A stretch of 64,000 bases of DNA from Leptotrichia hofstadii (GTDB taxonomy: Bacteria > Fusobacteriota > Fusobacteriia > Fusobacteriales > Leptotrichiaceae), in contig NZ_AP019823.1 of NCBI RefSeq assembly GCF_007990525.1, forward strand, positions 1,612,001 to 1,676,000. The letters run 5' to 3'. Positions 25,930 through 29,119 of the stretch are shown here, piece after piece (positions within the stretch are counted from its first letter, which is position 1; every line of letters begins with the position of its first letter). The position numbers and the translations under genes are program-made. Under the pieces are notes generated by a model that had not been told where the DNA came from, ran no database searches, and worked only from the letters and a program-made list of their open reading frames with translations.

Positions 25930-25958
25930 TAGACAAATATTGTAATAAATGGTATAAT
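25930..25958 (+). promoter_or_regulatory. Promoter of the secA unit
   Basis: TAGACA (25930-25935), 17 bases, TATAAT (25953-25958), about 40 bases before the first ORF. It would drive both this ORF and secA, as no terminator is seen between them. Confidence 0.65.
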
Positions 25959-25998
25959 AAACGGAGTTTCAACAATTTTAAACAACAAAATTTTAGGA

Positions 25999-26397
25999 GT
26001 GAGAAAAATAATTATAGATAGAAGAAAAAGTGTAATGCTCGTCATGACTTGCATTATTTTTATGATGACCTATTCAAGTCTTCTTGGAACACCTAGTTTT
26101 AGCCATAAACTGAGCGTATTTGTGGATGAAAACAATCTAAGCCACGAAGATATAAGGGATCTGATTGTCAAAATTAACCAAATTGAAAGTGCAAATAACA
26201 GGCGATTTACGCAGGAACTGAAAAAGATTGAAAAACGTAAGGAAAGGGAAAGTCGTAAGGATAGTACATTTTTATCCTCTGAAAGAAAATGGGATAACGA
26301 TTTTTATGACAATTCTATTGAGCTTTCCATAAATACTGGAAATAATAGTATTTTTTTAATGAAAAAAAATGAAAATAATCTCAGAACCAGGGAATAG
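25999..26397 (+). CDS. Small membrane or secreted protein directly upstream of secA
   Basis: The ORF of up to 132 residues has a positively charged start, a hydrophobic segment MLVMTCIIFMMTY (about 13-25) and a long hydrophilic, highly charged remainder with SRKDSTFLSSERKW near residue 90. It could be a secreted protein or a single-span membrane protein. The start is uncertain: AGGAG at 25995-25999 overlaps the GTG at 25999, and the codons at normal spacing are ATA (26008) and ATT (26011); the first ATG is at 26035 with a poor ribosome site. It ends 61 bases before secA in the same transcript. Its position and exported nature recall secM of E. coli, but no known arrest motif is seen. Family not recognised. 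Confidence 0.6.
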   Translation: MRKIIIDRRKSVMLVMTCIIFMMTYSSLLGTPSFSHKLSVFVDENNLSHEDIRDLIVKINQIESANNRRFTQELKKIEKRKERESRKDSTFLSSERKWDNDFYDNSIELSINTGNNSIFLMKKNENNLRTRE

Positions 26398-26458
26398 AAA
26401 TCAAATATTTTAAGTCCACATTTTTAATAAAAAATATACGAAAGGAAAAATTAGAAAA

Positions 26459-29119
26459 ATGTTAAAAAAAATCGGAGAAAAAATATTTGGTACATCAGAT
26501 GAGAGAGAAATCAAAAAAATGCAAAAATTGGTAGACAAAATTAACGAAATCGAACCACTTTTTGAAAAACTGACAGACGAGCAGTTAAGCCATAAAACAG
26601 TTGAATTTAAAGAAAGATTAGAAAAAGAAACGCTTGACGATATATTAGTAGAGGCATTTGCAACAGTCAGGGAAGCTTCTAAAAGACTTATGGGAATGCG
26701 TCACTATGATGTGCAGCTTATTGGTGGAATGATTCTTCATAAAGGCTGTATAGCAGAAATGAAGACAGGGGAAGGAAAAACTCTGATGGCAACACTTCCA
26801 ATTTATCTGAACGCATTACCAGGTAAGGGAGTACATGTCGTAACGGTTAATGACTATCTTGCAAAACGGGATAGAGATATTATGGCAGGACTTTTTGAGT
26901 TTTTGGGACTGACTTCCGGAGTTGTTGTTGGGAATATTACACCAGAACAAAGAAAAGACGCTTACAACTGTGATATTACTTACGGAACAAATAATGAATT
27001 TGGATTTGATTATTTGAGAGATAATATGGTGGCAGAGCTTGATGAGAAAGTGCAGCGTGGACATAACTATGTTATTGTCGATGAGGTGGATTCCATCCTG
27101 ATTGATGAGGCAAGAACGCCGCTTATTATTTCAGGAGCGGCTGAAGAAACAACGGAATGGTATAACACTTTTGCAGAAGTTGCAAAAAGACTTAAAAGAA
27201 GCTACAAAACTGAGGAAATTAAAGATAAGAAAAATACTGTAATTCCTGATGAAGATTGGGAAGATTATGAAGTTGATGAAAAATCACACACAGTTACAAT
27301 TACTGATAAAGGAATTAAAAATGTTGAAAGAATGTTAAAAATTGATAATTTGTATTCGCCAGAATATGTAGAGCTTACTCACTTTTTAACACAGGCATTG
27401 AAAGCAAAAGAATTATTTAAACTGGACAGGGATTATATTATAAACGATGACAATGAAGTTATTATAGTAGATGAGTTCACTGGGCGTCTTATGGAAGGAA
27501 GACGTTATTCAGATGGACTGCATCAGGCAATCGAAGCAAAGGAAAAATTGGAAGTTGCCGGAGAAAACCAGACTCTTGCGACAATTACGTTACAAAACTA
27601 TTTCAGAATGTATGAAAAATTGTCAGGAATGACGGGTACTGCGAAAACAGAAGAAGACGAATTTAAACAAATTTACAGCTTAAAAGTTATTGTCGTTCCT
27701 ACAAATAAACCTGTTGCCAGAGTAGATTTGCCCGATGTCATTTATATGAATAAAAACGCAAAATATAAAGCAATTGCAAGAAAAATAGAAGAACTTTACC
27801 AGAAAGGGCAGCCAGTTCTTGTTGGTACAGCTTCAATTCAGCATTCAGAAGAAGTATCTGCATTATTGAAAAAAGCTAAAATACCACATGAAATATTAAA
27901 TGCCAAGCATCATGAACGTGAAGCTGAAATAATTGCTCAAGCAGGGCGTTTCAAAACAGTAACAATTGCAACAAATATGGCAGGACGTGGAACGGATATT
28001 AAACTTGGGGGAGATGCAGAGTCGTTTGCTACAAAAGTTGCCGTAAAAGGAACTCCTGAATACGAAGATGTCTACAGAGCATACGTAAGGGAATGTGAAG
28101 AGGACAAGAAAAAAGTTATCGCCGCCGGTGGATTGTTCATTCTTGGAACGGAACGGCATGAAAGCAGACGTATCGATAATCAGTTAAGAGGGCGTGCCGG
28201 CCGTCAAGGAGATCCTGGAACATCAGAATTTTACTTGTCATTAGACGACGATCTTATGAGACTTTTTGGTGGAGACAGGCTTAAAACAATGATGAAAATG
28301 CTAAAAATCGATGAAGATGAGGAAATCAGACATAAACAAATTAGTAAATCAGTGGAAAATGCTCAAAAACGTATTGAAAGCAGAAACTTTTCATCAAGAA
28401 AAAGCCTTATCGAGTACGATGATGTAAACAATACTCAAAGAGAGGTTGTTTACGAGCAAAGGGATGCTATCCTGAAAAATGAAAACTTGAAAGAGTTAAT
28501 TACAAATATGATTTCAGATACTGTAGATGACATCGTAAATTCAGCCTATGTAGGTGAAGGAAATGGCGAAAAGGATTTTAACCTTCTATCAGACAAGCTT
28601 ATGGAAACATTTGAATATGAAATTTCAGAAGATTTACAAAATTCAAATTCAGAAGAAATTTCAAATAAGGTTTATGAAGATTTAGTAAGAATTTATGATG
28701 AAAAAGAAGAGGCAATTGGAGAAGAAATATTTAGAAGAATTGAAAGATACATCATGCTGGAAGTGCTGGATTCTAAATGGCGACAACATTTGAAGGATTT
28801 AACAGAACTGCGTGAAGGGATAAGACTACGTTCTTATGGACAAAGAAATCCTATTCATGATTATAAAATCGTAGCTTATGAAATTTACAATGAAATGATT
28901 GACGCAATAAAACGTGAAACAAGTTCATTTATCTTAAAATTAAGAGTTCGTAGTGAAGAAGATACAAACAACTTGACTCATGAAGAAGTTTCAAATGTAA
29001 GATATGAACACGAGGAAAACCAAATGATAGGTGATGATGTTTCAGATAGAACACCAAATGAATCACACCGTCCGCTTTCAAGAAGAGAAAGAAGAGAACG
29101 TGAAAGAAGAAATGTTTAA
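26459..29119 (+). CDS. secA: Preprotein translocase ATPase SecA
   Basis: SecA drives export of unfolded proteins through SecYEG. The 886 residues show the Walker A MKTGEGKT (101-108), [20 protein letters not shown] around 206-225, the second nucleotide fold [14 protein letters not shown], and the helical scaffold [20 protein letters not shown]. The C-terminus ends in a basic [12 protein letters not shown] tail and lacks the zinc-binding CxC...CH/CC module that binds SecB in many bacteria. AAAGGA precedes the ATG. It follows the small exported-protein ORF by 61 bases and ends at a strong terminator. It serves the many exported proteins encoded in this window. Confidence 0.97.

Follow-up and report, generated by a model that had tools for sequence, protein, structure and literature searches.

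Does the small open reading frame (ORF) immediately upstream of secA in Leptotrichia hofstadii encode a monitor of protein secretion, i.e., an exported peptide that stalls its own ribosome and thereby tunes the synthesis of SecA? The question arises from a 64,000-nt stretch of the L. hofstadii genome (contig NZ_AP019823.1, positions 1,612,001–1,676,000; hereafter the window), for which a preliminary description had proposed such a monitor. By comparing this upstream ORF (uORF) with its relatives throughout the Leptotrichiaceae and with the arrest peptides reported upstream of sec genes in other bacteria, we conclude from the sequences that it is quite probably a Sec-monitoring arrest peptide for secA that carries a candidate new motif. 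The best reading of our analysis is a protein that would resemble SecM in function without being a homologue of SecM.

Organization of the locus

The exported-type uORF lies 61 nt before secA on the same strand, and the downstream gene carries all SecA Pfam domains, which confirms the layout originally described (Table 1). A gene for a HAD-type hydrolase lies upstream of the uORF in the opposite orientation. A good promoter match is present 5′ of the uORF, and a scan of the region from this match to secA found no terminator-like site; together these observations are consistent with the single transcript that had been assumed for the two genes. The elements TAGACA and TG[AG]TATAATAA recur upstream of the uORF in most Leptotrichia species, and promoter-like elements of similar form precede the ORF in three other genera (g4, g6 and g8; genera of the family are designated g1 to g11 throughout). 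The preliminary description had also pointed to a hairpin at 26331–26357, near the end of the ORF. This hairpin exists and is weak (-4.5 kcal/mol) but is not conserved, and we rejected it as a terminator or regulator. A search for Rfam elements at the uORF likewise returned only sub-threshold chance matches.

Table 1. Features of the uORF–secA locus of L. hofstadii (window coordinates)
Feature	Position	Strand	Description
Putative promoter of the uORF–secA unit	25930..25958	+	TAGACA-17-TATAAT with extended TG; 11/12 consensus matches
Shine-Dalgarno sequence AGGAG of the uORF	25995..25999	+	Overlaps the GTG start; from sequence, common to six species
uORF, candidate secretion monitor	25999..26397	+	132 aa, GTG start, TAG stop; within-genus pN/pS 0.31
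ATA codon, possible weak start	26008..26010	+	8 nt after the Shine-Dalgarno sequence; homologous position is ATG in L021–L023; start choice inferred
Hydrophobic segment, export signal or membrane anchor	26032..26076	+	Codons 12–26; hydropathy; AlphaFold helix 8–24
Conserved helical spacer domain	26092..26268	+	Codons 32–90; low pN/pS; pLDDT about 73–90
Variable spacer, predicted disordered	26269..26361	+	Codons 91–121; pLDDT about 40; high pN/pS
Weak hairpin AAATACT/AGTATTT, then T's	26331..26353	+	-4.5 kcal/mol; not kept in most relatives; probably incidental
Candidate arrest motif KKNENNLRTRE and stop codon	26362..26397	+	Last 8 codons pN/pS 0.14; conserved across genera; pattern unique in the genome
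Intergenic spacer uORF–secA	26398..26458	+	61 nt; anti-Shine-Dalgarno arm absent here, present in the matching region of other genera
Shine-Dalgarno core AGGA of secA	26443..26446	+	Predicted accessible in this species; opening energy 0.34 kcal/mol
secA	26459..29119	+	886 aa, ATG at 26459; Pfam SecA_DEAD, SecA_PP_bind, SecA_SW, P-loop_SecA

Distribution in the Leptotrichiaceae

A monitor of SecA would be expected to stay beside secA, and the check suggested at the outset, that the uORF and its C-terminus be conserved there in Leptotrichia, came out in favor of the proposal: the uORF adjoins secA in 13 of 13 Leptotrichia genomes, and its C-terminal tail is constrained. The same linkage is found in g2, g3, g4, g6, g7, g8, g9 and g11 and in one of the two g10 species, and the uORF type is present in every genus of the family with a readable secA-upstream region (in g5 the single secA is truncated at the 5′ side). 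The genes upstream of the uORF vary between species while the uORF–secA pair stays, with 42–283 nt between the end of the uORF and secA (g1–g4, g6, g8, g9, g11 and the g10 species that has the uORF). The upper extreme belongs to locus L024, where the spacer consists mostly of AGATAA- and AGAAAA-like repeats (283 nt vs. 46–78 nt in its relatives). Of the two g7 genomes, one carries a copy whose tail has diverged (INIMISLE-stop), and no match to secA was obtained in the other. The second g10 species (genome G027, contig G027:C2, locus L042) has no uORF, and a YfiH-like gene (family likeness judged by eye from product and position) ends 19 nt before its secA; we read this species as a natural loss of the candidate monitor.

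At the secA loci examined in the Fusobacteriaceae and other outgroups, no comparable ORF precedes secA; in most cases the end of a DNA ligase gene (ligA, identified by eye) stands there, and other genes in the rest. A profile of the uORF protein found strong matches only within the family, one per genome, and missed g2, g10 and g11 because the proteins there are shorter and too diverged. Outside the Leptotrichiaceae the few profile matches had E values of 1e-4 to 1e-2, and several contained internal stops or had partial coverage; they were not accepted as family members. In a single-protein search the nearest named records were from Leptotrichia sp. oral taxon 879 and L. hongkongensis.

The survey also turned up some irregular secA genes. 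In one complete genome a frameshift or a sequencing error has broken secA into two open frames that overlap (G017:C1:918838-921482); a Fusobacteriaceae genome has a second SecA-like reading frame of 54% identity with one internal TAG (G055:C1:31699-34233); and in G018, listed as 92% complete, secA went unmatched even at E 1e-10, probably owing to an assembly gap.

Architecture of the uORF protein

Hydropathy predicts an N-terminal export-type signal in the uORF protein: residues 12–26 have a mean Kyte-Doolittle value of 2.04 and are preceded by basic residues, with nothing comparable further on. All genera checked have one N-terminal hydropathy maximum of 2.0–2.5, again preceded by basic residues. 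The distance from the hydrophobic segment to the C-terminus is 103–115 residues in one group and 69–76 in the other. The short-form proteins (g2, g7, g10 and g11) can be aligned to each other; they keep the export segment and the C-terminus, and between these their sequence is unrelated to the middle region of the long form. In the AlphaFold model of the L. hofstadii protein an N-terminal helix is followed by three helices over residues 32–90; the rest, which includes two short helices, is modelled at low confidence. Fold comparison gave no PDB match with E below 2, and sequence comparison no convincing one; Pfam and NCBIfam membership was rejected, the searches giving only scattered weak matches under the cut-offs.

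A constrained tail abuts the stop codon

Selection acts on the uORF at the protein level, as seen from its overall pN/pS within loci L014–L023, and does so unevenly. In the same loci, ten-codon windows give mostly 0.02–0.36 for codons 31–90 and 0.65–1.37 for codons 91–130, and at the very end of the ORF the constraint returns: the last eight codons have a pN/pS of 0.14 vs. 0.82 for the preceding 22, and 0.21 vs. 0.92 when compared against the diverged group L024–L026. The leucine codons of the tail interchange among CTC, TTG, TTA and CTT, and those of arginine among AGA, CGA, CGG, AGG and CGT, which places the constraint on the peptide. The consensus, K-x(2)-E-N-[ND]-L-[RK]-x-x-E-stop, is flush with a UAA or UAG stop codon. 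Across genera the tails read ENNLRTRE, ENNLRIRE, KNNLRIRE, ENILKLRE, ENNLKLIE, RNNLKYIE, KNDLRNLE, LNDLRYLW and VMERSLE, with E at -1 in all but one genus and, in most, R or K at -4, L at -5 and N at -7. The preliminary description had seen no known arrest motif in the protein, and none is present; a lineage-specific tail emerges on comparison of the relatives.

Summed over the last eight residues, the column score for nine genera (15.36) exceeds those of all 5000 residue shuffles (maximum 0.47), and that of the five most diverged genera likewise beats all 5000; because this test ignores shared ancestry, the codon-level pN/pS contrast is the stronger evidence. The pattern N-[ND]-L-R-x-R-E-stop occurs a single time in the genome, at the uORF. 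The 29 uORF stops comprise 14 UAA and 15 UAG and never UGA, which is only suggestive since UGA is already rare in the window (the long open frames there end in 32 UAA, 11 UAG and 4 UGA). From these comparisons we regard a conserved, peptide-level tail tied to secA as very likely. In L. hongkongensis JMUB5056 (L018, genome G002; also L102), seven consecutive T's bring a TGA into frame immediately upstream of the tail, and the tail itself survives in another frame as NENNLRIRE-stop; a sequencing error, a real frameshift or slippage could each account for this.

Relation to known arrest peptides

Four in-silico criteria have been set out for arrest peptides that monitor Sec or YidC (Fujiwara et al., 2024; PMC10987492): (i) a uORF of a sec or yidC gene that encodes a small protein of unknown function, (ii) an N-terminal secretion signal or transmembrane segment, (iii) C-terminal conservation among homologues and (iv) a spacer of more than 30 residues between the signal and the C-terminal end. 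The 132-residue protein encoded just before secA has, by hydropathy, such an N-terminal segment, its C-terminus is conserved by both pN/pS and column scores, and its relatives have spacers of 69–115 residues. Since the four features are found together and the motifs of SecM (FxxxxWIxxxxGIRAGP) and of the RAPP-like peptides are absent from every family member, we classify the uORF as a candidate Sec-monitoring arrest peptide distinct from SecM.

Its likeness to SecM lies in the arrangement, a small exported protein directly upstream of secA with a long spacer and a conserved C-terminal stretch, and both spacer classes of the family are near those of SecM (medians 131.5 and 71 residues; PMC10987492). 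In g9–g11 the likeness may extend to the secA Shine-Dalgarno (SD) sequence, which is predicted to be masked there by an element that would open under a stalled ribosome. Unlike SecM, the uORF tail is proline-free and abuts the stop codon, shows no detectable homology and, in Leptotrichia, is followed by no SD hairpin. With ApdA, ApdP, ApcA and their relatives of the RQH/RAPP type it shares the position upstream of sec or yidC genes, an export or transmembrane segment and the possession of a C-terminal motif.

The closest parallels are with peptides that act at their stop codon. Arrest at the stop codon is well established for peptides encoded upstream of sec genes, and uA_NSP-stop (Sphingobacteriaceae), uDF_NAP-stop (Bacteroidota) and uDF_DGMK-stop (Clostridia) have been shown to need the stop codon for arrest (PMC10987492). 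Bacteroidota and Clostridia are the hosts reported for them; that study does not mention Fusobacteriota in its main text, an unlabelled entry in its supplementary listing being possible, and the literature searched held nothing relevant on arrest peptides of Fusobacteriota. Like these peptides, the uORF family combines a position upstream of a sec gene and an N-terminal localization signal with conserved residues immediately before the stop codon. It differs in that N-[ND]-L-[RK]-x-x-E-stop ends in glutamate, not in proline or lysine, in its occurrence in the Leptotrichiaceae and in being a candidate for arrest. TnaC, the tryptophan-sensing leader peptide, also stalls at its own stop codon; termination at the uORF would similarly be blocked while its stop codon occupies the A site, whereas TnaC senses free tryptophan, is not exported and has no sequence resemblance to the uORF.

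Proposed mechanism and the Shine-Dalgarno sequence of secA

An exported protein whose conserved tail runs right up to the stop codon probably stalls its ribosome and thereby tunes SecA. In the mechanism that we propose, the N-terminal signal would target the nascent chain to SecA and SecYEG, and N-[ND]-L-[RK]-x-x-E, lying next to the peptidyl-transferase centre, would cause the ribosome to pause, most likely holding glutamyl-tRNA in the P site and the UAA or UAG stop codon in the A site. The pull of brisk export on the nascent chain would end the pause, and poor export would prolong it. In g9–g11 a paused ribosome would cover the anti-SD arm past the stop codon and so free the secA SD, giving more SecA.

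Folding models give this last step a concrete form in three genera. In g9 (L039–L041), g10 (L038) and g11 (L033, L035–L037), an arm that starts about 4 nt past the uORF stop pairs with the secA SD; the predicted cost of opening the SD is about 1.4–6 kcal/mol in free RNA and falls below 0.8 once the model places a ribosome on the stop codon. A drop of this size is matched by 0–9% of dinucleotide-shuffled spacers, and the median opening cost in control secA leaders (Fusobacteriaceae and other outgroups) is 0.90 kcal/mol. When the 3′ edge of the ribosome is slid along the mRNA, the SD opens only at +4 to +10 nt past the stop, its opening energy dropping there from about 2–6 to below 0.5 kcal/mol. 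To judge from toeprint distances, this range is the one expected if the stop codon occupies the A site, and not if the ribosome has stalled several codons upstream. We consider SD release in g9–g11 reasonably likely, and a stall in which the A site contains the stop codon somewhat favored.

In the clade of the window the secA SD is predicted to be open with or without a ribosome, and sequestration of the SD or the start codon there was rejected as no better than in shuffled spacers, save in single species such as L022 and L025. The RNA switch, as modelled, is therefore not family-wide. Two diverged members of the genus, L025 and L026, share a related hairpin in which one change is compensatory (TTTCAATTT/AAATTGAAA vs. 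TTTCGATTT/AAATCGAAA) and whose predicted effect on the SD is small. Arrest in Leptotrichia may instead affect secA by protecting the mRNA, through structure outside our model or by another route. It is tempting, if doubtful on present evidence, to generalize to a proline-free stop-codon arrest peptide that controls secA throughout the Leptotrichiaceae, in which the peptide was kept and the mRNA switch replaced, with SD sequestration in the Sebaldella/Sneathia-like genera and an output without sequestration in Leptotrichia. In g8 (L029, L030), about 35 nt before secA, an SD-like GAGAGGAG abuts an upstream in-frame ATG, and a strong hairpin lies between this site and the expected secA start.

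Alternative explanations

The identification of the uORF as a secretion-monitor-like leader draws its support from the family-wide linkage to secA, the export signal, the long spacer and the C-terminus conserved to the stop codon. Against arrest stand the conservation and helicity of codons 31–90, the L. hongkongensis frameshift, the loss of the uORF in one g10 species and the open secA SD predicted in the clade of the window. The first of these points also favors a different protein altogether, an ordinary small exported or membrane-anchored helical envelope protein that is co-transcribed with secA and whose C-terminus serves as a binding or sorting tag. Purifying selection over the entire ORF, together with the low pN/pS and confidently modelled helices of the central region (pLDDT about 73–90), would suit such a protein, and because the arrest model does not require the helical domain, this is the main reason to allow for an alternative or additional role. 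We nevertheless consider the envelope protein unlikely as the explanation, given the strict linkage to secA with strong profile matches nowhere else, the replacement of the middle region in g2, g7, g10 and g11 by unrelated sequence between a retained export segment and C-terminus, a constraint that stops exactly at the stop codon and, in three genera, ribosome-gated SD hairpins that start just past it.

It is less probable still that the uORF acts on secA by its plain translation or by translational coupling, with no peptide-specific arrest. The shared transcript with no terminator found would allow this, and in g9–g11 any ribosome terminating at the uORF stop would briefly open the secA SD; however, the uORF–secA distances are too great for ordinary coupling, and the conserved last residues, kept despite free synonymous change, are left unexplained. 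The same synonymous change makes it very improbable that the conservation at the end of the ORF reflects an RNA element, whether a structure or a regulator site. AU-rich stems do occur near the stop codon at many loci, but third codon positions and the first positions of arginine codons vary while the residues hold, and neither a conserved internal hairpin nor a credible Rfam match was found.

Implications of a candidate monitor in the Fusobacteriota

If the arrest-peptide reading is true, SecA monitoring would extend to a lineage of the Fusobacteriota, a phylum without such a regulator in the literature searched, and the known arrest sequences would gain one without proline or a RAPP-like core that ends in glutamate at the stop codon. 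As the same tail is found on otherwise dissimilar proteins in ten genera, the family offers naturally occurring variants with which to study how termination is blocked by a nascent chain, and it would also show how an mRNA switch changes while the peptide signal persists.

A clade-specific start region

The preliminary description had regarded the start of the uORF as compromised. The overlap on which this view was based is real, the last G of AGGAG being the first G of the GTG start, with an ATA codon 8 nt after the SD; this layout, including the ATA at the same spacing, is confined to the six species L014–L019. L020 has a similar GGGAG 10 nt before the same GTG, and in L021–L023 the GTG position is ATG, with a second ATG where L014–L019 have ATA. 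The layout is most simply explained by a short deletion that moved the SD onto the start codon in an ancestor common to L014–L019. Weak initiation in these six species is plausible as a trait of their clade, not a property of the family, and being limited to one clade it lies outside the core mechanism.
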